This document shows, one piece after another, positions 31,404 to 63,342 of a DNA stretch of 64,000 nucleotides. The position numbers and the translations under genes are program-made. Source of the DNA: Siphonodentalium dalli. Taxonomy: Eukaryota; Mollusca; Scaphopoda; Gadilida; Siphonodentaliidae. The stretch spans positions 84,046,324-84,110,323 of the forward strand of contig CP136061.1 in assembly GCA_032622095.1 (NCBI GenBank). Direction: 5' to 3'. How positions within the stretch are numbered: position 1 is the stretch's first letter; every line of letters starts with the position of its first letter. The notes under the pieces were generated by a model. It was not told where the DNA came from. It saw nothing but the letters and a program-made list of their open reading frames with translations, and searched no databases.

Positions 31404-32917
31404 TTAGGATATCACATTTTCTAAAGATTCATAAAAGGCTTTGAGTCTGGCCCTCTTTGTGGCCCTCCTCGATGGGACGACACTTATAGTCTGCAGGTCT
31501 GACGGAAGACTCAGAAGAGTACTATTTATATCTAAGTTAGTCATCCTCGCTGCCATCTTGCATCTAACACTTTCTGATTGGTTGAGCACATTGTTACGAT
31601 AATTTGTAACATTTAAATTTTGAGACACATCTGGTGAGGACTTGCTTGTTTTGAAATTGTCACAGATTTGTTCAGCAATTTCTTTTCCCTCTTCATCCAT
31701 ATGAGTTATAAAATCAGCATGACTCTTATGGCGTTTTGAACTTGTCTCAGCACTAGAACTGTCCCGAATACAATCCAATTTATCTTTACACGTTTTCTCA
31801 CTGGAATTTTCAACACGTTCTTCATTGTTGAAATTATAATTTTCATTGTATTTTGTCAAAAAAGAGCAGTGAGAAGTGCTCCTTTTTAATTTCAATTTTT
31901 GTTCATCACTAGAATCAATCAGAACACAGTTAGGTTTATGTTCTGCCTCATGTTCATGTTCGGAGTCAACATACTCGACACCTCTCTTCTTATGAATATG
32001 TTTCGGCAATTTACCTGATGTCCTTTTTGATTTGGAATAAACCTTCCTTCTGGTATCGCATGACTGAAATTTCATCCTATCTCTGTGATAATACTCTGGA
32101 CATTTTAAGCATGTTCTCGGTGAAGTGTTCAGGAATCTGTTGAAACATGTCAGGTCTCCAGAAAGTTGTCCTGGTTTCGACTTAACAATAGGCCTCATTG
32201 CTCTTGGCTTAATGAAGGAAATAAAGTCAGCTAATTCTGAGAAACTACTGTGGTCAGAATACGGAACTATATACACATGAGAGTAATGATGATACGGTTT
32301 GCGTTCCAGAATATGATAGAGAGCTGTAGGCCAAATGACTATGGAATCAGATTTCGTTCTTTCCAAAAAATGTTTTGACACTGCCGATTGATTTTTTATG
32401 ATGATACGGCACTGCGACTCGCATTGTTCATCTTTGAAAACATCCGGCAACTGAAGAATTTCGGCTATTTCAAGCACAGATTTCGGTACACATACCCACT
32501 GTTTGAATTTTAAGCCAATTCTGGCAAATAACTCCTCTTTTCCAAGATTTCGAGAAATGATGAACACCGTTTTATGAGGATTAGAAGAGATAATTTCACA
32601 GATTTTATCAGAAGCTTCTCCTCGACTTGGAAACAAACATTTTGGTTCGCAGTATGTATTATCGACATAGAGCATATCGATGTCTTTTAGTCTGTTCTGA
32701 ATAACATGTTCCATATTGATTTTCAGGTTTGTGGACCATCTAAAATCGCCAGAATGTAAGATCGATCCAAAATATCCTTCGAAGAGGAACATGACGGCAC
32801 CAGGACAATGATCAGCATCCAGGAGAGTCACAGTTATCGTCTGCCGTCCATCACTGTCGAGCGGAATCACGTGACCTCGCGATAACTCTAAGGAGTGAAT
32901 CAGCTCCCGAGACACAC
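31404..32917 (-). CDS. DCLRE1B: DCLRE1B/Apollo, coding exon 2 (terminal)
   Basis: Exon 2 starts after a good acceptor (tttacag, AG at 32919-32918) and ends at TAA 31406-31404. With exon 1 it gives a 566-residue protein; human Apollo is 532. SNM1 metallo-beta-lactamase/beta-CASP motifs are present: 'LLDADHCPGAVMFLFEG' with His99, 'HSGDFR' with Asp120 and 'VPYSDHSSFSEL' with His near 285. The first two share the numbering of human Apollo. Family role: a 5'-to-3' exonuclease acting in telomere end processing and interstrand-crosslink repair in the nucleus. Residues after about 310 are Ser/Lys-rich and poorly conserved; I see no clear C-terminal TRF2-binding motif like that of vertebrates. All catalytic residues look intact. 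Confidence 0.93.
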
Positions 32918-33779
32918 CTGTAAAGACACAAAATGTGGTGAAAATGTCTTGTGCTGAATATCAATTTGTTATTTTGTGTATACTGCACTTAATTAATGAC
33001 TTGCGAGAAAACTATATCCAAAAGTATTACTGGGAAAATCCTAACAGAAATAAATTCTACAGATTGCTGTCACTGCTAAATATAAGTATGTTGAAGAGTA
33101 AGTAAGAGTGAGAATTTACTTAAAATTATCATTTAAATAGTTACCATGACAAGAGTAATTTATATTATATATCATATAGAATTTTTTTTTTGCGTCAAAC
33201 AATTTAAGAATACACTCATAGCAATAGCAGCCAATTCTGATGCTTGATAGTTTCAAATCTATCTAGGGCACCTATTATACAAAAATTTAATATATGCATA
33301 TGATACTTCATAGTACCCAATATAGACCTCAGCTTCAAAAGCACACCTTTTTCAGTTATCTTCCCCTGTTCTATCAAATGACATCTGACCAGGGGCCCGG
33401 AGCAGCACCAGGGGCCCGGAGCAGTCTTGATTACAGAAAATAGCGGATGCACCTTGATTCTGGAATTTAGAACGCGTTTGCAAATGGCTGAGTGTTATTG
33501 GGTTCGCATCAATTGTGCCATTATTCAAAAGTATGTATTAGTTTAGAGGGTTTGTATTTTAAAATTAATATGGTGCAATTTTGTTCACTTCTTTCAAACA
33601 AAGAATTAGCGTAACTCGTGAGAATTCAGAATAGTGAATACCTCGACTAGTAAGAGGTTAATGAGTAGTCTATTATAGCCGTGGAGTCGATGAGATCATC
33701 TGGACCATGGGGATGTATCGGGTGATTGAATCATATTTTCAAGTTCCCAAGCAGTATATCACACATAAATTTACATTCA

Positions 33780-36425: not shown

Positions 36426-36945
36426 AGATGGATTATCTCTTTAAATAACAAATTTTAAATAGTTGCGTGGGTATAAAATAATAGATATGAACTGAAGACC
36501 TATGTCCGGAAAAGCTTCTATCAATTAATATTGATTTTATTTTGAATATTAAATCGGGCCCATTTATGTTACTATTTTTAGAACCGACCATTCGGATGAG
36601 ACCCTATTGCGATATAGAGCACTGGGGTGTTCCTACGGCTACGCAACGAATGTCAAATGTCACAGATTGGTTGTTTGTACTGTTTTGTTCCACATATATA
36701 AGCGATAATGAGTATAATTAACGTTTATTTGTGACGAAATTGCACAATATAATTTCTGGTCTCTGTTAACAGTAACCAATATTGTTCGTTAGCTGAACAA
36801 ACACACCTGTTTAGACCAGAAAATATTAGAAATAATATTAATATTAATCGATAGAAGCATTTCCGGACAGGAGTCTTCGATTCAGATATAATATTTTATA
36901 CCCCGGTAACTATATAATACATGTTTACAAAGAGATAATCCACCT
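36426..36945. mobile_element. TTAA MITE, AGATGGATTATCTC family
   Basis: Inverted ends AGATGGATTATCTCTTT and AAAGAGATAATCCACCT, flanked by TTAA (36422-36425, 36946-36949). Copy B has a single TTAA at 38386-38389, the empty site. Related decayed copies lie at about 44750-44870 and 57730-58135. Non-coding. Confidence 0.88.
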
Positions 36946-37213
36946 TTAAATGATTGTAAGATTCCATGCAGCTGAAACAATGATACAGTAATGCCCTATA
37001 TAATCGACTCCTTAACAACAGCAGAATGAAATATGGGTAACTTTTCAGGATTTATTCGGAAATATGGCTTGTTGCCATTCACCGACTAAATACTAAAAAG
37101 TTACCCATGATTCTGCTGTGGTTAAGGAGTTGATTATTTAGGGCATTACTGTAAGTCACCCTGGGGTTATACCAATTACCATCGTCCCAATGAAACCGGG
37201 ACATTATAGAACA

Positions 37214-45564: not shown

Positions 45565-46890
45565 ATAAATAGATAGAACCGCATCATAGTAAGTTGACTC
45601 ACAATCGTACATCTCCGGTTCAGAAAATGTGAATTTAATTGAGTTTTAACGGCATTTTAAGGTTAACACAACAATCAGACAGGGAGTCTATCTGCGAGTG
45701 ACCTTGACTCATCTTTAATGATGCGTTTGAAAATAAATTCTGTGCCTCGACAAACATATTCTTGAAACGAAACTACTTGAATGAATCATCTCATCGATTG
45801 ATCGCTTATTGTTTCTTTATTGTCGTGATTGAAAAAGTAAAAATAGTAATGGAGAGAACAACACTGAATGAAATAGTTCCGTCGACAGATTGCACTGGTG
45901 CGATTCTGAGAATTATCACACGCCTGGAAACTCGTGCGATCATGCGAATTACGTTAATAGATATGTAATAAACCACTTTATTAGGTCTTTATAGACAAAT
46001 GATATACCCCATCTTCAGTTTAATATGTATTTTATTCACAATACTGTATACCCATTAAACAAGGAAATGTTAAAAACATCATCACAGAATACTAATTAGC
46101 TTATGATTCGGCTGCGGTGGCAATGTTGAAATTACCATGGTTACATCCACACATGGTTTGGTGAGCTGTGTATTAAAATAGGTTTGTCAGAGCCTCACCC
46201 AAAATAAACAATTTAAATAATGGCATTAGCTACATATTCTATATGTTATAATGCTAATTCAAATTCTGGTATCACTAAAGCCTGTTATTCTCAGTGAATT
46301 TGTGATTCTAATGAACGGGATAATAATAACGGCGGGGAATAACGTGGTTTCAAGGTTGGTGAGTACCACGCATTCAAAATGTGCAAATGTACAAAAACAT
46401 AATAAATGAGGAACTGACACAAAACATAGCAGTTTGACTCTTACGTGCATATGCTAGTTTATTTTTAAAACAAGTTGATACATTATTTGTTCAGAAATAC
46501 TCTGTGGTTTTATATAACATTCTTACAAAAGTTTCCAGTCGAGGTTCGCGAAACACAAGTCCATACATCTAGGAGAATCCTTCGACTGACAACTTTGGTC
46601 AGAATGTTAGAGCAAAGGACTGCGAGTTTGGACACAAATGAGGTTATGAGTTTGTTTGAAAAATAGTATAGCATATGCTCGTAGCTGCCAAAATACAATG
46701 TAATATATCATTATCCTAGTTTATTACTTTTTCCTCGTTTCTGGTTGGGTTTGCGGTCACTTCAGCCATTTTGAATGTGTGATACTCGTCAACTCGAAAC
46801 CACAAGATTCCCCACTGTGATAATGGTGCCAAAATACAGGTAAATAATGGTATCAAAGTAAAACGAGGTTGCAAAGATTATGCCTGAATT
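45565..46890. other. No gene supported
   Basis: Small plus-strand frames at 45762-45968 and 46475-46666 are open, and the latter follows an acceptor-like site. Neither matches a family I recognise. No repeat identified. Confidence 0.4.
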
Positions 46891-46892
46891 TA

Positions 46893-47315
46893 ATGTGTCT
46901 GATATTTGCAGAATGAGGTCCCCAGTGGGTGAATTTAATGACGCTATCCCACATAGTGGGGTAGCATCACAATATTCACCTTCTGGGGACCTCATTCTGC
47001 TTAGCCCTCATCTTCTAGGAAATATCAAAAGTCTCAAATTAACATTGTTTGTAGTAAAAAATTTCCTGGTCAGTTTCTATATCCCCTAATTGCAGAATAT
47101 ACATGTAAATTGCATTATCAAGGTGACTAAAGGTGAACATCACAAACTTCAACTTGGGAACTTCAAGCTATCCTAGCTCTCCCATAGCAATTGAGGCCTA
47201 AGCAGAATGAGGTCACCAGAGGGTGAATTTGGTGAGGCTAGCCCTCTATGCAGGATAGTGTGACTTAAGATTACCCTCTCTGGACCTCATTCTGCAAGCG
47301 GCAGACACACTATTT
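46893..47315. mobile_element. Double-hairpin MITE, CAGAATGAGGTCC family
   Basis: Hairpin 1 at about 46908-47000, a core, and hairpin 2 at about 47205-47295. The layout is as in 35300-35753. Confidence 0.8.
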
Positions 47316-47329
47316 CATGGTGCAAATTC

Positions 47330-47820
47330 AACCATGGGCAGGTGGGAACCCAAATACTGAAGTGATCACCACAGTGTGGCAAGCAACCTATATACCAACA
47401 ACACAATACTGAAGTGATCACCCCAGTGTGGCAAGCAACCTCATATACCAACAACACAATCGCTTGGGCTTGGCAAAATAAGCCCATGGTAATTCCAACA
47501 AAGGGCCATAACTCTGGTGAAAATTGGCAACTTCGAACTTGACCTGTAGTTTGAGCTAGTAAATTCACATAACAAATTTCATTCCAATCAGTTTAGACAT
47601 AAATGTACTACTAGTACAGTGATAATCCAGAAATGATAATTGAGTGAAAATTGCAAGAAAAAGGGCCATAACTGTGGTGAAAAGTGGCGTGCGGAACCCG
47701 AATTGGAAGTTGACCTGCATTTTGTGCTTGTATACCCACATACCAAATTTCATTCCATTCAATTGAGACTATTTTAAGTTATCATCGGGAAAGCAAATGG
47801 ATGGACGGACATGCATGTAC
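47330..47820. repeat. Dispersed 'gggccataactctggtgaaa' repeat
   Basis: A ~60-bp direct duplication ('actgaagtgatcacc', 47357 and 47407), then two copies of the 'gggccataactctggtgaaa' module (about 47503 and 47662). This module also occurs in 51640-52165 and near 57535. Non-coding. Confidence 0.65.
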
Positions 47821-47994
47821 AGATGAAGAGACAAATAACATAATACATGAGCGCTCCTAACGTGATGTCATCTGTATGCAGCCTTAGTCGGTAACATAGA
47901 TATGATCAGCGCTCCCAACCATCGATGTGAAACCACATGAATACTCAGCCAGTAATGACGTTGATGGAATGAGGACTAAATGTGTACACATGCT

Positions 47995-48200
47995 CAGTTA
48001 GTAGCGTAACATTGTCAGTAATGACATGGATGTAATGTGAATTACACACGCACGCATTCAGTCAGTAATGACATGGATGTAATGTGAATTACACACGCAC
48101 GCATTCAGTCAGTAATGACATGGATGTGATGTGAATTACACACGCATGCATTCAGTCAGTAATGACATGGATGTAATGTGAATTACACACGCACGCATTC
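47995..48200. repeat. ~47-bp minisatellite in the UQCC6 3' flank
   Basis: Four to five units of 'cagtaatgacatggatgtaa' plus 'tgtgaattacacacgcacgcattcagt'. The last unit reaches the UQCC6 stop codon (48199-48201), so the array lies in its presumed 3' UTR. Confidence 0.9.
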
Positions 48201-48285
48201 AGTCAGCAACTATATGGATATGGTGAGCACTTGCACTCTCTTTTTCCATCTTCTTTACTTCTTCTGCAAACATTTCATCAAGTCC
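48199..48285 (-). CDS. UQCC6: UQCC6/BRAWNIN-like, coding exon 2 (terminal)
   Basis: 87 bp after an acceptor aattgcag (AG at 48287-48286). It reads 28 codons, 'GLDEMFAEEVKKMEKESASA' plus eight more, then TGA at 48201-48199. Joined to exon 1 in phase 0, it gives '...YYKPLE' + 'GLDEMF...'. This fits BRAWNIN proteins, where an acidic, basic-charged tail follows the YY[RK]P motif. Total 60 residues; human is 71. The stop lies at the edge of a minisatellite, so the C-terminus may have been changed by the repeat. Confidence 0.8.
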   Translation of the reverse strand, partial: GLDEMFAEEVKKMEKESASAHHIHIVAD

Positions 48286-49824
48286 CTGCAATTTAATCGA
48301 ACAAAATTAATGCATGGTACTACACCCCCTGTATCCGGCTTCAGGTACATGTATGTTGTGGATACCACAAATCCGGTGTAATAAAAATAGTTTACATATC
48401 GACACGTGGTAAGTACATGTATATGACAATTTTTCACAAAGATATGAAAATTACCAAACTACTCTTTCTCGTCCGTAGATTTAGTTTGTATTCTCATGTT
48501 CAGAGATGAATTTATCAACTCAAAAATGTAGCGATTACATTATATTTCATCACAAATGTTGTCTCACACTAATTGGTTAGGGGTTTCGTCGGTAATTTAG
48601 GCTTCATTCTTGTACATAATTCCCCAAGTAGTGCTGCATTTATAGAATATTATATTCCCCAGACCCATTTTCTTACAGACATTGTTTATAAAAGCTGAAC
48701 AAGTACAATTGTTTTGACTTTGTAGAACGGTGCTGGTGCATGTAGTGGGTAAAGTGAGCGCGGGTGTGACAACTTGTTAATGGTACCACAACTTCGGTGT
48801 AGCGACTCCCTTTAGTTCGGTGCCTAATATAGGAAATACTATTTTAAAATCCCCTCACAGCGAGAAATGAATGTGAAAATGACACGTTATAGGCCCACAC
48901 AGGTATACATGTACTTTACTTGCTATTATTATCATCGTCATGATTTCATTCCGGTATACTGCACCATTATAATATAGTATTTCCAGTTTCCTCTGGTCTT
49001 CACATGTCTAATAAACCATATGCATCCCATTGCAATGCTTTGATGGCCATATATTTCAAATATCGGGAAGAACATCTATATTATAGACACGTGCATTGTC
49101 AAGATATAACCGATGTTGAGCAAATAATGCCATGTAGTTCAATCGCCATATCATCCCTTGATTATAAACTGCAAACAGTATACGCTCAATTTGGTTCCGA
49201 ATTAGGGATACATGTATTTTGGGAAACTGAAATATGGTCGCTCAGTCATGCAGGAAAAGATACTTTAATGTTCACTTTATTTGTTTCTCCCAGGCATAAA
49301 CACAATTATGTCAGTACTAGTTAGTAAGTTTCACCATGCCTTACATAACTGCATGCATGCATGGCAGTGGTTATATTAATGTAACCAAATACATTGATAT
49401 AATCGGATCACTGCAATGCGATAGCATGAACCAAACTCTCCCCTAAGTAGGAACCAAATGGTCATAATGTTGTAAATTGTACACGTAGGTGTATATTCCT
49501 CTGCCGTAAAGTAAATACTGTTTGTTGTATATAGTTTCAGTGATATATGGCTCCAAAAATTGCAATAAAGAGGTGGCTTACATGCACCCCCCCACCTCAG
49601 TGATGCATGATGTACTTACATGTATGGGGATTCATTACGCTGGTTCTGCATGGTGCCTTACATGTATATCGACAACTCTGGGACTAACGGATCAATCTAT
49701 ATATTAATACTGTATATTTACATGGGAACCAACACATTGACAAATCCATATTATCATATATGATTTGATCATGACTCCAAAAGTTGAGATAAGAAAGGTT
49801 GTGCTTATGTACACCAGAATAAGT

Positions 49825-49845
49825 CCCCCCCCCCCCCCCCCCCCT
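49825..49845. repeat. Poly-C tract, 21 bp
   Basis: An uninterrupted run of 21 C. Confidence 0.95.
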
Positions 49846-50043
49846 GTCTTTAAATCTACCTCAAGAACGAGTAAAACTGCAACTGTCAGAACATTTATAT
49901 ACAGGTAGGTAAATATTGTCGTCAATTCACGCATCAATGTGTGCGATTTAAAACAGAGCAAAAAATAATAGGTTGCAATTTAAATACCAGTAAGGCACCA
50001 TGAAATTGAGTAACTTGTTTGGACCACATGGTAATTGCATTAA

Positions 50044-50553
50044 ACCCTTTGAGTGCCAGGGGCCGATCTCATCGGCCCTAATTTATGGTCTGTAGAGTGC
50101 CCTTTTTTCAGATTGTTTTTATTTGGGTTGAATTTTTTTTGGGTATGCTTAAGCATGCTATAGCGAATTTAAAAACAAACTGGATAAAACCTTTGGGGCA
50201 TGTTATAACTCAAAACTATCACCAAGTATTCATAGTAATAATTTTGATGCCCATGATAAATGTAAGATTCCCTGGCGCTAAACCTACAAAATAAGTCTGT
50301 TAGGTAAGGTATATGAGAAAATGAATTCTCCAGGAAAAACACCAGTACAAAACTAATCCTTTGAAATAAGTCTGTTGAAGAATATAAGAAAAAATTATTA
50401 AAATTGTAAAAAATAATAACAAATGAAAAATTGTTAGGCCAATGCATTCTCTTATATATGCGAGGTGACCTATGGTCGACTCGCATATATAAGAGAATGC
50501 ATTGGCACAGGGTATATGGGTTGTTACAAAAATCGGACTTGGCACTCAAAGGG
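50044..50553. mobile_element. TTAA hairpin MITE (CCCTTTGAGTGCC type)
   Basis: Flanked by TTAA (50040-50043, 50554-50557). Ends ACCCTTTGAGTGCC / GGCACTCAAAGGG. It contains the 'gccaatgcattctcttatat' palindrome at about 50437-50505. 510 bp, non-coding. Confidence 0.88.
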
Positions 50554-51226
50554 TTAAAAGAAATTTGTGTTCTGAGAAGTGTTCTGAACACTTGATTTTA
50601 GCCAATAGCTCCACTCAGCTAACTGAACAAGCTAAACAAGAGTATCGTGGGCGTGGCTACGCCCGTTAGTTTACTTGTAAATTGTTATTAAATCAGGTGA
50701 ATTAAGTTAAAAAAAATGACTATATAATTGGAAGAAACACATATTTGAACTTGGTCTGTATTATTTGCTGAGATACATATAGCAACAGTGGTTCAGATCA
50801 AATTATCCAAACTGGAGTTATCAGTCGGAAACCAAAACGTTATGAAATGAGACAAATACTGAGTCAAAAAGGGCTGTAACGCATGTATAAAATAAGTGTA
50901 TGGAACCTATATTCGAAAGTGGCATGTATTCTTGTCTAATAATGACACAACGCAACTTTGGTTCAAATATAATGATCCAAACTGGAGTTATCGGTCAGAA
51001 AACAAAATATTTAATTGATGGATGAACGGACAGATGGTTATACCAACGATACATGTACATGTAGGTACCCACTGGAAATAACTCATATTTTGGTGCCTGT
51101 CAAAATGGTAGGCACCAATTGGTTGTCATGACGGTCATTCATAAATTTGTGCCAGTCATATATATTTTCAAAAAGAATACAATATCTGTTACAGGGCACT
51201 TTTATAGGCATTTAATAAATCAATTA

Positions 51227-52972
51227 CAGTAAAACCTCTCCAAACCGAACACCCTTCGGACCAACCCTTTTGTTTGGTTTATAGAAAATAGCACTACGAT
51301 CGGAATGTATTGATGTCATTGTCGAAGAACAACTGACTCATTATTGATTATTTAAAATTTATTCAATAAAGTACCATATCAAATATAAATAAAAGGTCAG
51401 CCGACCACAGTGTCCCCCGAAAACATGGCAAGTCGACGCCGCTTTGTTAAAGAAATTAAAAAATATGTTGAAATGTTCTAAGTCGTAAAGAAATAATTTT
51501 TCCGTCATCTATATACATGTTACACATCTCCAATATGTTGGTAACATTACTCTGAAGTTTCAAATATCTACGATCAAAACTGTAGGAGGAGTTGATTTCA
51601 CCATGAAGGTACCCTCATACAGAAAATTATAAAAAATGTTTTTCAAAGTCGAAAGGCCCATAACTCTGGGAAAAATCATTGGATCAAACTCAAATTCGAC
51701 CTTGACCTGTATTTTGATATGAACGACCCACAAAAAAAAACAGATTTCCAATTAAACAATCCAAACTTGAGTTTTCATCCAGAAACCAAAGAAAAAACAA
51801 GAATATTTAATTTTTCTATTGTCGAAAAAAGTCCATAACTCTAGGAAAAATCATCGGATCAAACTCAAATTCGAACTCATCCTCTATATTGATATGACTG
51901 ATCCACATACATTAAAGGATCCAAACTTGAGATATCATCCGGAAACCGAAAAAGTGAGAAATTTTCAAAGTGAAAAAAAAGTTGAAAAAAGGGAAATAAC
52001 TCCTTAAAAGAATATCGGATCAAACCCAGAATTGCAGAGCACCTGTGTTCTTGGTTGAGACACCTACATACCAAGTTTCAATCAAATCATTACTGGAGTT
52101 ATTACTCCGGAGGGACGGACGCGGCTGATTACAATAGTCGTCCGAAAATTTCGGGGGACAATAACAATAGATAAAACATCATGTTAAAATATGAATTAAA
52201 AACATGGTATATTAAGACATAATACATGTATAGATAAAACAGGACACATGGAAACGATAAATGTTACAGTGATTGAAAATGTCACTTAAAAATGTTGCAT
52301 CTTTAGTATACATGTAGTTGATTCGTACTCTTAAATAATCGTAACTATTAATTAGCGGTATTTTGTTCGGCGACATCTTTGAACCGGATTATAACAACAG
52401 GTGTCTGATTAGATAACTGAATGCTTATTTAACACATTGAGTGAACAATGGTGACTTCACAGCACTGACATTTTGTTTTCAAATCAATCATTGTGCTGAA
52501 TTGGACTCTTATTTTTACGACTTTTACGACTTCTGTCCAAACTAAACAAAATTAGCTAAATTTACACGATGGTAGTGTATTGTCACCAGTACAGTTTTAA
52601 TTAACCTGTCACACCAAATGAGCCATCACGAAAATGGCACTCAGAGTTGATTGTATAGACTAGAAATTTAAAATCATTAAAGATACCCAGTCTATACACT
52701 ATTTAAAGCCAAAACAAGTTCACCATCAAGTATGTCAAATCAACAGAATGTGCGTTTGATTGTTATCGCTTTCCACGTTCGGATTTCGGAGGTAAAAATT
52801 AATGTATTCGTTTTGGACTAGAAAAGCCGTCCGATGTTCGGAATAGAGAGTTTCCGGATTACAGAGGTAATTTTTAGTGAGAACACACTTTGGTGAATTC
52901 GGGACCGGACAATTTGGTCGGTATGGAGAGGGATTCGGTTTATAGAGGGTCCGGTTTGGAGAGGTTTTACTG
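51227..52972. mobile_element. pogo/Tigger-like non-autonomous element
   Basis: Inverted ends CAGTAAAACCTCTCCAAACC and the complement, flanked by TA (51225-51226, 52973-52974). This fits the Tc1/mariner pogo branch. No transposase ORF. A second repeat (51411-52160) is inserted inside. Confidence 0.8.
51411..52160. mobile_element. Dispersed repeat with TGTCCCCCGAAAA inverted ends, copy 2
   Basis: Starts tgtcccccgaaaac and ends aatttcgggggaca, nested in the pogo-like element. It contains several 'ccataactct(g/a)ggaaaaatc' modules. Non-coding. Confidence 0.75.
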
Positions 52973-53067
52973 TACCAGCACTAAACCTAAAAAAAGTAAT
53001 AGAATCTATGTGAAGAAGTTTCTATAGAAATTTGTTAAAAAAGAAACTTTCAAGAGAAGATTAGGCC

Positions 53068-53172
53068 AAAGCAGAATGAGGTCCCAGAAGGTGAATTTAG
53101 TTATGCTAGCCCGCAATGCGGGATAGCGTCACTAAATTCACCCTCTGGGTACCTCATTCTGCAAATGACAGC
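53068..53172. mobile_element. Hairpin MITE, CAGAATGAGGTCC family
   Basis: A single ~100-bp hairpin with arms 'gcagaatgaggtcccagaag' and 'ctctgggtacctcattctgc'. It ends about 40 bp from the donor of UQCC6 exon 1. Confidence 0.85.
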
Positions 53173-53210
53173 CACACTAAACTCAAGACTTCATGTGGGA
53201 TAAATCTCAC

Positions 53211-53306
53211 CTCCAGAGGCTTGTAGTACCAATGAACGGTCTGAGAACCGAGTAACATGGCCGACAGGGCTGACATCTGGAACAACAGGTAGCGAGTCCA
53301 CCTCAT
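53211..53306 (-). CDS. UQCC6: UQCC6/BRAWNIN-like, coding exon 1
   Basis: Starts at ATG 53306 and reads 32 codons: 'MRWTRYLLFQMSALSAMLLG' then 'SQTVHWYYKPLE', ending at a perfect-phase donor GAG/gtgaga (53211/53210). Family match (from memory, no search run): BRAWNIN/C12orf73 has the pattern YLKxxxASLLAMxAGxxVVHxYYRP, a single N-terminal transmembrane helix followed by YY[RK]P. Role in the family: a small inner-mitochondrial-membrane protein needed for assembly of respiratory complex III. It lies 154 bp downstream of the UQCC5 stop on the same strand. The start follows a 4-codon mini-ORF (53317-53303) that overlaps it as ATGA. Too short to be found as an ORF. Confidence 0.85.
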
Positions 53307-53460
53307 CTTGTAGTCATAGAAATGCTTGAGTGAAATTTAGTCTATTGTTCGTAAGTGTAGCCTATTGCTTGTTATTCCTGTCTAATGTTCGTTATTGTCG
53401 CTTTCTTCTAGTAAAACTCTCGATATGAATTTTGCTGTCTTTGTTGTGCCTCTTTTAGTT
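53307..53460 (-). promoter_or_regulatory. UQCC5-UQCC6 intercistronic region
   Basis: 154 bp between the UQCC5 stop (TAA 53463-53461) and the UQCC6 start (53306). It contains no ATG until the mini-ORF ATG ACT ACA AGA TGA (53317-53303), whose stop overlaps the UQCC6 ATG. An acceptor-like ctcaag occurs at about 53325. No clear promoter is seen. It could be an untranslated spacer in one bicistronic mRNA or hold a second start site or trans-splice acceptor. Confidence 0.6.
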
Positions 53461-53540
53461 TTATTGGGATTGTTGTTGTTGTTGTCTTTGTTGTACTTCT
53501 TTTAGTCTTCGTTCTAGTTCTTTGCGTTTGTAGACATTGT
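53461..53540 (-). CDS. UQCC5: UQCC5/SMIM4-like, coding exon 2 (terminal)
   Basis: 80 bp after the acceptor tttcttcag (AG at 53542-53541). With the T left over from exon 1, the junction codon is TAC (Tyr). Reading continues 'NVYKRKELERRLKEVQQRQ', then a Gln run and TAA at 53463-53461. This fits the basic, charged tail of SMIM4 ('FYDVYRRKxxERxxxRR' in human). Together with exon 1 the protein is 77 residues (human 70). The poly-Gln end is an oddity of this species. The phase match and the conserved FYxVYxRK across the splice make the join convincing. Confidence 0.88.
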
Positions 53541-53901
53541 CTGAAGAAACAAAAACAACAAAACCTGCACCCGTCAGAAAAAAAACTTTAATCTGACATT
53601 AATAACTGCATGACATAAAACCTGAGTGTTTAAATTCAGCATTATGTGAGTACAATGCTTTATATTGTGTTCATGAATACAATGTGTTAGGTAGTGTCCA
53701 GTCGAATAAATATGACTGCTTCTAACATATAACAAGCTAGAAACTACATTATTGTACACAAATTTCATGCCTTGGGGTAGAATAGCTAGATTGTGTCTTT
53801 TCAACAGCAAGCAGGACTATTCCCGCCAGAATTACAACAATTCTGGCATCGTGGCAATTTCTGGCCAGATTGTGACTTCAGCTGGAGGGTAATAGTTTTA
53901 G

Positions 53902-54346
53902 CTCTTTTCAGTGCCAGGTCCGATTTTTGTATCAACCCATATACCCTGTGCCAATGCATTCTCTTATATATGCGAGTCGACCATAGGTCACCTCGCAAAT
54001 ATAAGAGAATGCATTGGCCTAACAATTTTTCATCATTTGTTATTATTTTTGACAATTTTAATAATTTTTTCTTATATTCTTTAATAGACTTATTTTGTAG
54101 GTTTAGTGCCAGGAAATCTGACGTTTTTCATGGTCATCAAAATTATTACTCTGAATACTTGGTGATAGTTTTGAGTTATAACATGCCCCTAAGGTTTAAT
54201 CCAGTTTGTTTTAAAATTCGCTATAGCATGCTTAAACATACCCAAAAAAATTGAACCCAAAAAAATCTTTAAAAAAAAATAATTTAGGGACGATTTTACA
54301 GACCGTAAATTAGGGCTGATGAGATCGGCCCCTGGCACTGAAAGGA
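53902..54346. mobile_element. TTAA hairpin MITE (CCCTTTGAGTGCC type)
   Basis: Right end ggcactgaaaggaTTAA (TTAA at 54347-54350). The left end is slightly degenerate (ctcttttcagtgccagg). The central palindrome is at about 53954-54018. The inside matches 50044-50553 in inverted orientation. Confidence 0.8.
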
Positions 54347-55679
54347 TTAAAGACAATAGCCGGCGATAGTCGGGTATTAAATGGTCAAAACTACTTTCCG
54401 ACATGTATTAATGGTGCTTCATCCAAATAAATAAAGGACAATATGAGTATATACATTGAGTTCATTGAGTCTCAATGTACAAATGTATATAATCATTCTC
54501 GATATTTTACCCAAAGGCAGTCAACATGAATACACATGTATACTATAATACGTATATACATCAATGGTGTTTTGTTTTCCAAACACATAATGAGCCATGG
54601 TCAATGGTTAAAAACTCGCAGGTACATGTAGCTCCAGTGACCATCACGAGGCCCCAACGGGCCACAGTGCCATGCATCCATGGTGTATTTGTTTTAATGT
54701 CTGCATAACGAATCCTCGTTGACAATCACAACACCTCCATGTTACATTTGTGTTTACACACAGCCTCACCTCTCCTACATTATATAGGATATTCCAATGA
54801 TTTATGAGCTGAAAATCACAGTGCAAGATATTCGCCTACATGTATACGCACATGTCTTAGATAATGCAAAACCATTACAATTTAAATGGAATTATCAAGG
54901 GTTTTATTCAGTGCACCAATTTTTTGTTGAAAGTACCTGACTAGTGAACAGGATATCTACATACACGGCGCCATCTACACCCAATCGACGGCCTATACAT
55001 GTTTGAGAAGGGTCTCCCCACTGGGCTAATGAACAAATGTTATTATTTACAAGTCTATTATCAAGTACCATATTTACCAACTTTGTATGAGTTACTACAT
55101 TTTAATAGTAAATAAATGCAGCAAAAAATGCTCGAACCCTCATTGGAATCACTTTGGTAGGGTGATCAATAGAAAGGGAGAATAATCTTGCTCAAAGTAG
55201 TTATTGTTACAAAGAATATAGCCAAATTGGCAACATCCACTGTCATATATTAATTAAATGTAGTGACACTCGATGATGAAATTGATTTCATTCGTTTATC
55301 GCCAATAGTTGCATCCTATCGAGAAGTATATATTTACAATCGAGCATACATGTGTAATTCAGACGATGTTTTCTATGGAGTGGTACAGTCCATTTGCTTG
55401 AGATTTTCTACGATGTTAGTAGAATGCTAAATTTCTCCAGTACATGTAGGCATAGTGCCTGAATCCTAACATATCCCGAACAAGTCCATAATATGATAAT
55501 AATGATCCGTTTCTATACCGGTATGTGAACATTGATTCTATTCTGATGTGAGAAAACAATCAATCTCTTAATTAATGGAGAATATGAACAACAATCACTG
55601 AACATTTCACAGTAAATTGCATGCCAATCTGAAAAAGGATCATGCTTAAACACTGCTTTGTGTACTAAAAATATTTTCT

Positions 55680-56085
55680 AACATTTGCAGAATGAGGTGA
55701 CCAAATTTTGAATTCAGTGATGCTACCCTGCACACCGGGCTAGCAAAACACAAATTCACCCTCAGGGGACCTCATTCTGCTTAGGCCTCAATTTCTGGGA
55801 CATATCTATTTGTCACAAATAAACATGTTTTATTACTTTTTCCCTTCTGGGAAGTTTTTATAACCCATAATTTTCAGAAGATAAAATGCATAATCGAGAT
55901 GACTAATGGGTAATATCACCATATTCAACTGGGGAACTTTAATCTGATCCTAGGTCTCCCATAGTAGTTGAGGCCAAAGCAGAATGATGTTCCCAGAGGA
56001 AGGAATTTTGTGACGATAGCAGGCAGTGCGGGATACCATCACTAAATTCACTCCCTGGAGACTCGCTGTCCCAAGTTCTAGAGTC
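55680..56085. mobile_element. Double-hairpin MITE, CAGAATGAGGTCC family
   Basis: Hairpin 1 at 55688-55790 and a degenerate hairpin 2 at 55977-56070, with a core between. Confidence 0.75.
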
Positions 56086-56599
56086 AAATGTGACAAGAAT
56101 AAATTACTGTACTAGACTTATTTAAACTTTTCAATATATCATGCACCTACAAGTACACATGTATGTTAAGCCTAAAAGATGCCTTTCCCAAAATCCCATC
56201 AGCCCAATCCCATGAACAGGTATCGGATAATTTCATAAACAGTGCCCATACATAGGCGTCAATGAGCGTTGCTAGATTATTTTCACATCTAGGCTCATTA
56301 TACAACAGTGCACATACTGTCATACATTAAATTTTTATGGGGAATTGGGCTGGGGTAATTCAATATTGGCTGTGTCTGCAAGAGTGATGCGATTTATGAT
56401 CCAAATCTTATTGATAAACGAGTGATCGAGGAAGGAAAATACCATTGTTGCTGGACCAAAATTTTCTCTTGCCTAAAGATTTGACAAATTTTTTTTGTTG
56501 TAAATTTAATTGAGGGTATGGTATAATTGGAGAAATTGAAGGAAATTCTTATTTTTTTTTCATTTGTTATACAATAATACAAGAGCATCGCTAGAGCAT

Positions 56600-57015
56600 G
56601 ACCAAAATATACCCTAACCCTAACCCTAGAGTGTGACCAAAATATACCCTAACCCTAACCTTAACCCTAGAGCATGACCAAAATATACCCTAACGGTTCT
56701 AACCCTAACCCTAGAGCATGACCAAAATATACCCTAACCCTAACCCTAGAGCATGACCAAAATATACCCTAACCCTAACCCTAGAGCATGACCAAAATAT
56801 ACCCTAACCCTAACCCTAGAGCATGACCAAAATATACCCTAACCGTAACCCTAGAGGATGACCAAAATATACCCTAACCCTAACCCTAGAGCATGACCAA
56901 AATATACCCTAACCCTAACCCTAGAGCATGACCAAAATATACCCAGGGGCGCCGGAAGCATCCAAGGGCATGGGGTGGGGGCAGAGCATGACCAAAATAT
57001 ACCCTTTAGCCAGAG
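56600..57015. repeat. 35-bp minisatellite with telomeric CCCTAA motifs
   Basis: About nine units of 'agagcatgaccaaaatatac' followed by 'cctaaccctaaccct', plus two shorter units at the right end. Each unit carries two to three CCCTAA repeats, the common animal telomere motif. Short blocks of unrelated sequence interrupt it near 56696 and 56943-56983. Confidence 0.93.
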
Positions 57016-57729
57016 CATGACCAAAATATACCCTTTAGCCATTTTCAATTGTTGTACTACAAAATACAATAACAAAGAAAATCTGATGTTCCCCTAATTT
57101 CAATGCCAAAATGTGGTCTACATGTATGTCGAAAACAGGTCATAACTCATGTGAAAATATCTGCATATTGGCATAAGAGACATCAGAAAATAATATAGCC
57201 ATATTAATAGCTAAGTAGTCCAAAGGCATGGGATGGAATTGGTGAAAATATGGCTCCAAACAAATTCACCAGTACATGACAATATTTGGACCGATTTAAA
57301 CCAAATTTGGTGCGCTGACTCGGGGTACCCTTGGCGGAATTATAATAGTGTTAGTTTTTGTAATTTTGTTATTTAAATTTTTTTTTTTTTTTTAATTACT
57401 TAAAAACAAATATTTAATTATTTTGTTTTGTTATTTATTTAATTATTTTATTTAGTTTTTGTTTTGTTAGATTGAGCAAGGAATTAAATCTAATTTTTTT
57501 AATTTTTTTTTTAAGAGTGAATATTTTTTCGAAAAAGGGCCATAACTCAGTTAAAAATAGTCTGATCAAACCCATATTCGAACTCGATCTGTCTTTTACG
57601 CTGAGAAATTCATATACCGAAATCGGTCGGGAAACTAAATTTTGCGATACCGATATCTTGCCGATATCACATATATCGACCCGATTCGATAGCCGATACC
57701 AATAATCGGTACATCACTAATAAAATGAG

Positions 57730-58135
57730 ATGATAAAGTGGGACACTTTATTGATCTCTTTTTAGAACAGACCATTCAGGCGATACCATATCGCGATAGA
57801 GATCATTAGGGTGTTCCTATAGTTATGATCCGAATACCGAATGTTCCAGATTGATTGTTTGTATTCTTTTATTACATAGATGTACATGTAGTTATGGGCG
57901 ATAATGAGTCTCATTGTTTATTTGTGACACAATTACACAATACAATATCTGGTCTCTGTTAACAGTAACCAATTTTGTATGTTAGCTAAACAACCACACG
58001 TGTTTAGACCATAAAATATTCAAAATATTATCAATATTAATCGATAGACGCATTTCTAATATCTTCTAATATCTTCTTCTAATATTGTATACCCGGTAAC
58101 TATAAACACATGTTTACAAAGAGATAGACCATCTT
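57730..58135. mobile_element. Decayed TTAA MITE (AGATGGATTATCTC type)
   Basis: Shares 'agaccattc' and 'gcgataatgagt' with 36426-36945, plus the right end 'acaaagagatagaccatctt' before taaa (58135-58138). The left end is not clear. It abuts the UQCC5 exon 1 donor within 90 bp. Confidence 0.65.
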
Positions 58136-58225
58136 TAAATATATTGAAATACTGCCCAGCACAACATGATACTGGTATTATCATAGAAATTGATGTTGCC
58201 ATGCGTGTTACACAAATATACTCAC

Positions 58226-58379
58226 AGAAATTGACGTTGCCAACGTGCCAGTTAATCATCAGAAACTCGATGCCTGCTCCAATCATGAAATACAGAGGAA
58301 GGAACCGGAATACTCCGAATCTTCGCTTTCCTGGGATCTTGTAAATAATATCGCTTAATTTCTGTATAAGTTTTCTCAT
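58226..58379 (-). CDS. UQCC5: UQCC5/SMIM4-like, coding exon 1
   Basis: Starts at ATG 58379 ('MRKLIQKLSDIIYKIPGKRR') and continues 'FGVFRFLPLYFMIGAGIEFL', 'MINWHVGNVNF', ending in phase 1 at the strong donor ttTCT/gtgagt (58226/58225). The family pattern, known from human SMIM4, is a short basic start, 'PGK[QR]RFG[IV][YF]RFLP' and one transmembrane helix (about residues 25-43). Role in the family: an inner-mitochondrial-membrane assembly factor for complex III, acting with UQCC6. Reading past the donor gives a longer non-homologous frame to 58056, which is not real. Exon 2 is at 53461-53540. A possible 5' UTR acceptor (tttctttgcag) ends at 58409. Confidence 0.9.
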
Positions 58380-58420
58380 TGTATCAGGTGAAAATCTGTT
58401 TAAGAAACCTGCAAAGAAAT
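58380..58420 (-). promoter_or_regulatory. Probable 5' UTR splice acceptor of UQCC5
   Basis: Minus-strand atttctttgcag (AG at 58410-58409) lies 29 bp upstream of the UQCC5 ATG and suggests a non-coding first exon further upstream. A TTAA MITE begins 9 bp further out (58429). Confidence 0.5.
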
Positions 58421-58428
58421 TGGTTTAA

Positions 58429-58818
58429 CCCTTTACCCAACAGAACGGCCCTGTGCCAATGCATTCTCTTATATATGCGAGTCGACCATAGGTCGCCTCG
58501 CATATATAAGAGAATGCATTGGCTTAACACATTAAAAATTATAAAATTGTTAAAGAATGTAAGAAAAAATGGTAAAAAGTGTTAAAAAAGATTTTTTTAG
58601 GCCAATGCATTCTCTTATATATGTGAGGCGACCTATGGTCGACTCGCATATATAAGAGAATGCATTGGCACAGGGCATAACTGTAACTATCACAATGTGG
58701 TCAAGGAGCCGGTTCCAATGATATCCATATTTGTATGGTTCTATTGAGACAGACCGAAGATATTTTAGGCTGTTGAAGCTTTATTTGGCCGTTTTTGGCC
58801 GTTTTGTTGGGTAAAGGG
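58429..58818. mobile_element. TTAA hairpin MITE (CCCTTTACCCAAC type)
   Basis: Flanked by TTAA (58425-58428, 58819-58822). Ends CCCTTTACCCAACAGAACGG / GTTGGGTAAAGGG. It contains two full 'gcattctcttatatatgcga' palindromes (58457-58525 and 58600-58670). Non-coding. Confidence 0.88.
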
Positions 58819-58839
58819 TTAAAGCAGACCTCAAAATAT

Positions 58840-59285
58840 AGTACTGGACATCTGAAGAATGAGGTCCCCAAAGGGTGAATTTAGGGACATTACCCTGCAC
58901 AGTGGGCTAGCATAACTAAATTCACCTTCTGGGGACCTCATTCTGCTTAGGCCTCATCTTTTCTGGAAAGTATATTCATTATCAAATTAACGAGTTGTTT
59001 AGTTTCTTTTGAAAGTTTATTTTTCTTTGTCTAGTTTAGTTTCTCTATATCCCAAAATTGGCAGACGACACATAGCATAATCGAGGTTCCCAATGGGTGT
59101 ACATCAACATATTCACCATTTGGGATCTTCAATCTGAGTCTATGTATTAGCAGATGAGGCCATGAAGAATGAGGTCTCCAGAGGGTGAATTTGGTGATGC
59201 TAGCCCACAATGTTGGATAGCGTTACTAAATTCAGCCTCTGGGGAACTCATTCTGCGAATGACAGACACACTAAACTCAGACTTG
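58840..59285. mobile_element. Double-hairpin MITE, CAGAATGAGGTCC family
   Basis: Hairpins at about 58855-58945 and 59163-59260, with the core between. Confidence 0.8.
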
Positions 59286-59343
59286 ATCGAACACCTGTTT
59301 TTTAGTTGAATGCAACATTGTCTTAATCCTTGTACTCTCTTAA

Positions 59344-59514
59344 CCCTTTCATGATTGGAGCTGTGCTGGTTCTGCATTAAAGATCCTGTGCCAGTGCATT
59401 ATTATATACATTGTATATGCTAGGCTCCCCATGCCCTATGGAGACTCGCATATATAAGAGAATGCATTTGTACAGGTTTTCACAAAATTTCAGGAAGCTC
59501 CATTCATGGAAGGG
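59344..59514. mobile_element. TTAA hairpin MITE (CCCTTTCATG type)
   Basis: Flanked by TTAA (59340-59343, 59515-59518). It has one 'gcattattatatacattgta' / 'catatataagagaatgcatt' imperfect hairpin. Confidence 0.8.
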
Positions 59515-59534
59515 TTAACAGTTTGATCCATTGA

Positions 59535-60395
59535 AATAAGGGGTCCTCCTATATACATGTACCAAGCACAAAGAAAATAAGGGGTCCTACTATATACCAA
59601 GCACAAAGAAAATAAGGGGTACTCCTATATACCAAGCACAAAGAAAATAAGGGGTCCTACTATATACCAAGCACAAAGAAAATAAGGGGTCCTACTATAT
59701 ACCAAGCACAAAGAAAATAAGGGGTCCTCCTATATACCAAGCACAAAGAAAATAAGGGGTCCTACTATATACCAAGCACAAAGAAAATAAGGGGTCCTAC
59801 TATATACCAAGCAAAAAGAAAATAAGGGGTCCTCCTATATACCAAGCACAAAGAAAATAAGGGGTCCTACTATATACCAAGCACAAAGAAAATAAGGGGT
59901 CCTCCTATATACCAAGCACAAAGAAAATAAGGGGTCCTACTATATACCAAGCACAAAGAAAATAAGGGGTCCTCCTATATACCAAGCACAAAGAAAATAA
60001 GGGGTCCTACTATATACCAAGCACAAAGAAAATAAGGGGTCCTACTATATACCAAGCAAAAAGAAAATAAGGGGTCCTACTATATACCAAGCACAAAGAA
60101 AATAAGGAGTCCTACTATATACCAAGCACAAAGAAAATAAGGGGCCCTACTATATACCAAGCACAAAGAAAATAAGGGGTCCTACTATATACCAAGCACA
60201 AAGAAAATAAGGAGTCCTACTATATACCAAGCACAAAGAAAATAAGGGGCCCTACTATATACCAAGCACAAAGAAAATAAGGGGCCCTACATATTTCCGA
60301 CTAAATCCTGAAAAGTTACCCATAATTCTGCTGTGGTTATGGAGTCGATTAATTAGAGCATTACTGTACTATATACCAAGCACAAAGAAAATAAT
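59535..60395. repeat. 35-bp minisatellite, interrupted by a MITE fragment
   Basis: About 22 units of 35 bp (aaggggtcctactatatacc + aagcacaaagaaaat). Positions 60289-60368 are half of a CAGTAATGC palindromic MITE, after which the unit sequence resumes for ~25 bp. Confidence 0.95.
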
Positions 60396-62634: not shown

Positions 62635-63090
62635 ACAACGGTGACAAGCAGAATGAGGTCCCCAGAGAGTGAATTTAATGATGCTACAAGACATACATGT
62701 ACAACATGTAGTGGAGTAGCATCACTAAATTCTCCCTCTGGGGACCTCATTCTGTTTAGGCCTCATTTGCTATGGGAGACATACCCCGGTAGACTCAGAT
62801 TGAAGTTCCCAAAATGGTTAATATTGTGATATACATCCATTGGGAACCTCAATTATGCAATGTGTCGTCGGCCAATTTGGGGATATAGAGAAACTAAACT
62901 AAAAAAGAAATAGAATCTATGTGAAGAAGTTTCTATAGTAAATTTGACAATAAAGATACATCTTTCCAGAGAAGATGAGGCCTAAGCAGAATGAGTTCCC
63001 CAGAGCGTGAATTTAGTGATGGTAGCTTTGCGGGATAGCGTCACTAAATTCACCCTCTGGAGACCTCATTCTGCAAATGACAGACACTCT
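62635..63090. mobile_element. Double-hairpin MITE, CAGAATGAGGTCC family
   Basis: Hairpins at about 62648-62757 and 62985-63078, with the same core as at 37713-37930. Confidence 0.8.
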
Positions 63091-63189
63091 TTAATCACGC
63101 TTTAATGGTGATCGATCCAAGTTGAGAATCACTCAGTGGGTATCATTCATGATACAATTCGATTTATTTTCATAAGCAATTCACAACAA

Positions 63190-63342
63190 AGCCTGAGTTT
63201 AGTATGCCTGTCATTTGCAGAATGAGGTCCCCAGAGGGTGAATTTAGTGATCATAACCCGCTATGAGAGATAGCATCACTAAATTCACCCTCTGCAGATC
63301 TCATTCTGCAAATGACAAGCACACTAAACTCAGGCTTATTAA
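63190..63342. mobile_element. Single-hairpin MITE, CAGAATGAGGTCC family
   Basis: Outer ends aagcctgagtttagt / actaaactcaggctta, and one hairpin at 63217-63310. Confidence 0.85.

Follow-up and report, generated by a model that had tools for sequence, protein, structure and literature searches.

Here we describe a linked pair of small genes, UQCC5 (SMIM4) and UQCC6 (BRAWNIN), in a 64,000-nucleotide (nt) stretch of DNA from the scaphopod mollusc Siphonodentalium dalli (the window; contig CP136061.1, positions 84,046,324 to 84,110,323). The two genes lie head-to-tail on the minus strand, UQCC5 first, and the gap between the UQCC5 stop and the UQCC6 start is 154 nt. The linked pair is confirmed as real by profile matches that are both far above the curated cut-offs and that were the only such matches found in the genome searches. 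By analogy with the sloth1/sloth2 pair of Drosophila, it is likely that the two genes share one bicistronic messenger RNA (mRNA).

UQCC5 and UQCC6 form a linked gene pair

The gene models, in window coordinates, are:
58226-58379, minus strand: UQCC5/SMIM4 coding exon 1 (from the ATG at 58379 through codon 51 and one further base), from its translation, GT donor and match to Pfam PF15114
53541-58225, minus strand: UQCC5 intron, 4,685 nt, phase 1, repeat-rich, starting with GT and finishing with AG
53461-53540, minus strand: UQCC5 coding exon 2, stop TAA, from the PF15114 score spliced versus unspliced
53307-53460, minus strand: intercistronic spacer, 154 nt, A-rich, with one AUG
53211-53306, minus strand: UQCC6/BRAWNIN coding exon 1 (ATG at 53306), from its match to Pfam PF14990 and its donor rank
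48286-53210, minus strand: UQCC6 intron, 4,925 nt (in phase 0 provided that exon 2 is correct), starting with GT and finishing with AG
48199-48285, minus strand: probable second coding exon of UQCC6, with 28 codons and a TGA stop, from splice consensus and reading frame

The spliced UQCC5 exons (154 + 80 nt) encode 77 amino acids, and those of UQCC6 (96 + 87 nt) encode 60. The first product matched PF15114 (UPF0640) with an expectation value (E) of 8.8e-27 and 93.2 bits, over profile positions 4-64 of 67; the second matched PF14990 (DUF4516) with E 5.5e-12 and 45.6 bits, over positions 7-39 of 46. The curated Pfam cut-off is 27 bits for each profile. We take PF15114 to be the SMIM4/UQCC5 family and PF14990 the BRAWNIN/UQCC6 family. 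The original prediction, which had proposed these four minus-strand exons, their phases and products, the two gene names and the 154-bp head-to-tail spacing, was borne out on these points, with a reservation on UQCC6 exon 2 (below).

In profile searches of the 2.23-Gb genome, which scored only the best candidates (12 for PF15114 and 40 for PF14990), the locus gave the sole match above the cut-off for each family; the other three of the four PF15114 matches listed, and the other five of the six PF14990 matches listed, fell below it. In a separate list of genome matches two of four lay away from the locus, and both were weak (E 0.35 and 7.35). For an unrelated sole match, the probability of lying on the same strand no more than 154 bp downstream is ∼3e-8. 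With 25,000 genes assumed in 2.23 Gb, a same-strand neighbour this close downstream is expected by chance for about one gene in 1,000.

Against solved structures UQCC5 found two chains, neither convincing (E 0.55 and 0.72), and UQCC6 found no match up to E 1. Each protein is expected to have a single transmembrane segment; the highest 19-residue hydropathy was 1.58 for UQCC5 (residues 24-42) and 1.14 for UQCC6 (residues 6-24), both below the usual transmembrane threshold of 1.6. Searches for UQCC5 relatives in viral and prokaryote contig collections gave 20 and 88 pattern matches, none of which was confirmed.

Support for the individual exons differs. The UQCC5 intron is well supported because splicing in exon 2 raised the PF15114 score from 71.9 bits (unspliced) to the full 93.2 bits, a gain of ∼21 bits. 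Its acceptor at 53540 ranks in the top 0.1%, and its donor in the top 6.6%, of the AGs and GTs, respectively, on the minus strand; the donor of UQCC6 exon 1 is in the top 0.25% of GTs. With PF14990, UQCC6 exon 1 scored 45.7 bits alone, 45.6 bits with exon 2 and 46.1 bits when left unspliced, and six alternative tails (three ranked better and three ranked next among 79 candidates) scored from 44.2 to 45.7 bits. The acceptor at 48285 is eighth among the 268 AGs between 53180 and 47000, and fourth among the 79 that open a tail of 20-60 codons. By eye, the three better-ranked tails are largely hydrophobic or aromatic, and the tail from 48285 is charged. We consider it very probable that UQCC6 exon 2, and hence the last 28 codons, is correct. 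Of the proposal that both cistrons are split by ∼4.8-kb introns, the UQCC5 half stands on the profile gain, whereas the UQCC6 intron brings no such gain.

The 3′ end of UQCC6 runs into a repeat:
48014-48206, minus strand: tandem repeat of 47 bp, 4.1 copies with 97% matches, in the proximal 3′ flank of UQCC6
The repeat begins within the last codons, so that the UQCC6 stop and last residues lie inside a copy. At the other side of the intron, one copy of a short inverted-repeat element begins ∼16 bp after the donor of exon 1; many copies of this element occur in the window, including those at 53055-53194, 58849-59287 and 62646-63337.

One mRNA or two

We regard as the best explanation of the whole, and as fairly probable, that this is a pair of the sloth1/sloth2 type, with one mRNA from which UQCC5 and then UQCC6 are translated. 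UQCC5-UQCC6 would be the form that the sloth1/sloth2 (SMIM4/C12orf73) pair takes in a lophotrochozoan, and a single promoter upstream of 58.4 kb would give an mRNA of at least three exons (58408-58226, 53540-53211, and 48285 onward), the second of which would run from the last part of UQCC5 through the spacer into the first part of UQCC6. Translation would begin with UQCC5; UQCC6 would be reached either by ribosomes that start scanning again over the 154-nt spacer or by ribosomes that bypass UQCC5. The two proteins would be destined for the inner mitochondrial membrane, with a joint early role in complex III assembly. The earlier count of three exons out of four under 100 bp holds for the coding pieces, but if the mRNA is bicistronic the middle two are a single exon of 330 nt.

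One mRNA is favoured because the spacer is short for a 3′ end plus a promoter and is without a good acceptor. With the cis-splicing consensus as yardstick, 30% of the AGs on the strand score equal to or better than the best AG within the spacer, so that we see no site there that would serve UQCC6 well as an acceptor, in cis or in trans. The order with UQCC5 first, shared with the fly, and the mutual dependence of the two human proteins (PMC8719881) also speak for the sloth-type reading. The sites that bound the 330-nt middle exon do not discriminate, because the one-mRNA and the two-gene models both need them. It is very improbable that spliced-leader trans-splicing cuts a polycistronic pre-mRNA here, as in nematode operons. 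The tight head-to-tail spacing is operon-like, but besides the poor acceptors of the spacer (37% of AGs equal or surpass the one immediately before the UQCC6 ATG), trans-splicing and operons were reported absent in an annelid (PMC7854359), and a survey reached no resolution on putative spliced leaders in molluscs (PMC3795323).

Alternatively, the pair could be two tandem genes with promoters of their own, UQCC5 ending at an AATAAA and UQCC6 starting within the spacer, the linkage being kept without a shared mRNA. The hexamer in question is:
53460-53465, minus strand: AATAAA that overlaps the UQCC5 stop and resembles a poly(A) signal
It fits two genes, but is prone to arise by chance in such an A-rich stretch (0.37 expected in shuffles). 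The ratio of observed to expected CpG (CpG o/e) was at least 1 in 4 of the 36 bins of 500 bp between 46001 and 64000. Two of these, at 52001 (1.02) and 52501 (1.10), cover 52001-53000, just 3′ of UQCC6 exon 1 in the first part of its intron, where a UQCC6 promoter could lie; the other two are at 57501 (1.45) and 58001 (1.02). The value was 0.55 at 53001-53500, and that of the spacer itself is not unusual (0.89, with four CpG). A legend in Bosch et al. also permits "adjacent separate transcripts" in species where the genes are linked (PMC9681215). Nevertheless, 154 nt leaves scant room for a 3′ end, a promoter and a 5′ untranslated region (UTR), and we judge two separate genes to be unlikely. 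CpG was dropped as a guide to promoters, both for and against, because 57756-58140 is a repeat with a second copy at 36572-36951, and because 9 of 20 bins covering a further 10 kb upstream, beyond the window, also reached at least 1.

A different arrangement at the upstream end would leave one transcription unit with two mRNAs. The feature that bears on it is:
58380-58408, minus strand: probable 5′ UTR portion of the first coding exon, with the acceptor-like TTTCTTTGCAG before it, from its acceptor rank
This acceptor scores among the best 0.43% of AGs and stands 29 nt ahead of the UQCC5 ATG. A repeat starts at 58424, another 16 bp upstream of 58408. A good acceptor so near the ATG with a repeat close upstream suggests an intron in the 5′ UTR, or a non-coding upstream exon. 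Such a first exon could be spliced either to 58408, giving an mRNA with UQCC5 first, or to 53540, whose acceptor is in the top 0.1%, giving one that lacks the UQCC5 start exon and has UQCC6 as its main open reading frame (ORF). Skipping of the start exon is possible because the intron lies inside UQCC5. However, no candidate for an upstream non-coding exon emerged from the ORFs and CpG of the adjoining 10 kb outside the window, and the skipped transcript would keep ORFs of 7 and 4 codons ahead of UQCC6. We consider two such mRNAs rather improbable. Upstream of the pair, at 59534-60294, there is a long tandem array of 35-bp units with 96% matches (the part scanned extends to 60000).

Several observations weigh against the single sloth-type mRNA, the AATAAA at the UQCC5 stop and, although CpG does not discriminate, the CpG values 3′ of UQCC6 exon 1 among them. 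Downstream of UQCC6 the nearest ATTAAA is ∼1.26 kb away and the nearest AATAAA ∼1.5 kb. A retrocopy of the joined mRNA, which would have argued strongly for bicistrony, was not found with a 571-nt spliced query, since all three genome matches were the locus itself; this outcome is uninformative because such copies need not exist. UQCC6 exon 2 has no profile support, as its addition did not raise the score. The start contexts are GATACA-ATG-A for UQCC5 and TACAAG-ATG-A for UQCC6, both with A at -3, so that the weak-then-strong order of the fly is absent; and four AUGs lie between the two starts, two of them in the UQCC5 frame, one opening a 7-codon ORF and one a 4-codon ORF. Similarity of the two products as paralogues was not detected: BLASTP gave no alignment at E 100, the local score was 19.0 against a shuffle mean of 20.8, and the global z was 1.42, with 8.5% of 2000 shuffles equal or better, in what is a weak test on a single species' pair. 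Overall, among six features of UQCC5, UQCC6 and the sloth genes that were compared, three were found here and two were not; among those present is the sloth1 orthologue directly upstream of the sloth2 orthologue on one strand.

Start codons and the spacer

Simple leaky scanning from UQCC5 to UQCC6 is made harder by a UQCC5 start that is not weak and by the four AUGs before UQCC6, of which one has A at -3 and the others T, C and T. One of the four opens a minicistron:
53303-53317, minus strand: minicistron of 4 codons, with a TGA that shares bases with the UQCC6 start (ATGA)
A makes up 46% of the spacer (71/154). Compared with its shuffles, the spacer showed no extra structure (z 0.93), 166 of 200 being equal or better in folding, and 46000-60000 had no Rfam match at the gathering threshold; an internal ribosome entry site in the spacer was rejected on these two grounds. 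We also rejected a depletion of AUGs. The spacer has one, and the window averages 3.5 per 154 nt; but in 17% of window stretches the number is no higher than one, and shuffled versions of the spacer contain 0.37 on average.

Should the mRNA be bicistronic, simple leaky scanning would be a poorer fit than reinitiation or exon skipping, and bypass alone a poorer one than scanning resumed over the 154-nt spacer. A first ORF of 77 codons is long for reinitiation. Tentatively, and with some doubt, we propose that the shared mRNA would yield UQCC6 by a route other than that of the fly, either reinitiation over a long unstructured spacer with the aid of the minicistron, or skipping of the UQCC5 start exon. 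If so, the bicistronic layout would be conserved and the way of balancing the two proteins would differ. The missing asymmetry of start contexts raises the question of what sets the ratio of two interdependent assembly factors when the first start is not weak.

The spacer also carries a trace of its history:
53432-53459, minus strand: 28-nt near-copy (25/28) of the UQCC5 tail coding sequence at 53506-53479, 47 nt downstream of it and in a different frame
The near-copy occupies spacer positions 2-29, and its alignment score of 41 was reached by none of 2000 dinucleotide shuffles (best 40). When both copies are read in the frame of the UQCC5 tail, two of the three differences are synonymous (alignment read by eye). 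In the frame of the near-copy the spacer is open for 16 codons, beginning like the UQCC5 tail, and then meets a stop. The end of UQCC5, and hence the length of the spacer, has probably changed in this lineage; 154 nt should not be taken as ancestral.

Linked pairs elsewhere, function and surroundings

That the two genes are an anciently linked pair was already published by Bosch et al. in 2022 (PMC9681215). In Drosophila a single bicistronic sloth1-sloth2 transcript was established by a cDNA clone and by reverse transcription PCR, and a similar bicistronic architecture was reported for a choanoflagellate, a sea squirt and a lamprey. Human SMIM4 and C12orf73 are on chromosomes 3 and 12, and it was proposed there that both ORFs had a single ancestor and lost their linkage on the way to jawed vertebrates; the fly proteins share 27%. 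The original prediction had placed the ancestral linkage in bilaterians. Its antiquity is backed by the literature, but that level is too shallow, since the linkage reaches a choanoflagellate (PMC9681215).

The scaphopod pair has the same two families, order and strand as sloth1/sloth2 (CG32736/CG42308), and ORFs of similar length (77 and 60 amino acids, versus 79 and 61 in the fly). The spacer is 5 nt in Drosophila and 154 nt here. The sloth1 start context is poor and that of sloth2 good, and reporters agree with leaky scanning (PMC9681215), whereas both scaphopod starts have A at -3. Both cistrons here are apparently split by long introns. A single mRNA has been demonstrated for Drosophila alone, and the pair described here is known from its sequence. 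As judged from the published description, the choanoflagellate, sea squirt and lamprey have the linked arrangement found here; the human genes belong to the same families but are on separate chromosomes.

No lophotrochozoan is named in the accession list of Bosch et al. (PMC9681215), and we found no report of a linked pair in a lophotrochozoan in the open-licence literature, which is weak evidence of absence as the searches were partly swamped by general terms. The pair adds the other large protostome branch beside the fly, and fits a linkage retained from before animals. As to function, the human proteins are mutually dependent early assembly factors of complex III in the inner membrane (PMC8719881), and the fly pair regulates complex III assembly (PMC9681215). 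A role in complex III assembly is expected here by homology.

Elsewhere in the window, 31407-32960 on the same strand as the pair holds a stop-to-stop ORF of 518 amino acids that matches a DNA-repair metallo-beta-lactamase domain (PF07522, E 2e-8), presumably an SNM1/Artemis-like gene. Retroelement and transposon ORFs lie within 497-24095, with matches to reverse transcriptase, RNase H, endonuclease, DUF4371 and hAT dimerisation domains.

The genome also contains a Hox cluster at 77.47-78.82 Mb of contig C7, which accounts for nine of eleven homeobox matches. One of its genes has KLTGP directly after the homeodomain, which we take to be the mark of lophotrochozoan Lox5, and two others resemble Lox4 and Lox2. 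A review, in whose text the letters KLTGP do not occur, counts Lox2, Lox4 and Lox5 among the lophotrochozoan genes (PMC5831810). On this evidence the animal most probably belongs to the lophotrochozoans. A search for molluscan haemocyanin (PF14830) gave no match, but neither did its controls, and absence does not follow. At positions 77673389 and 77720567 of the same contig, ∼47 kb apart, are identical open frames of 86 amino acids around a divergent Antp-class homeodomain, which would be either a recent duplication or an assembly duplicate.

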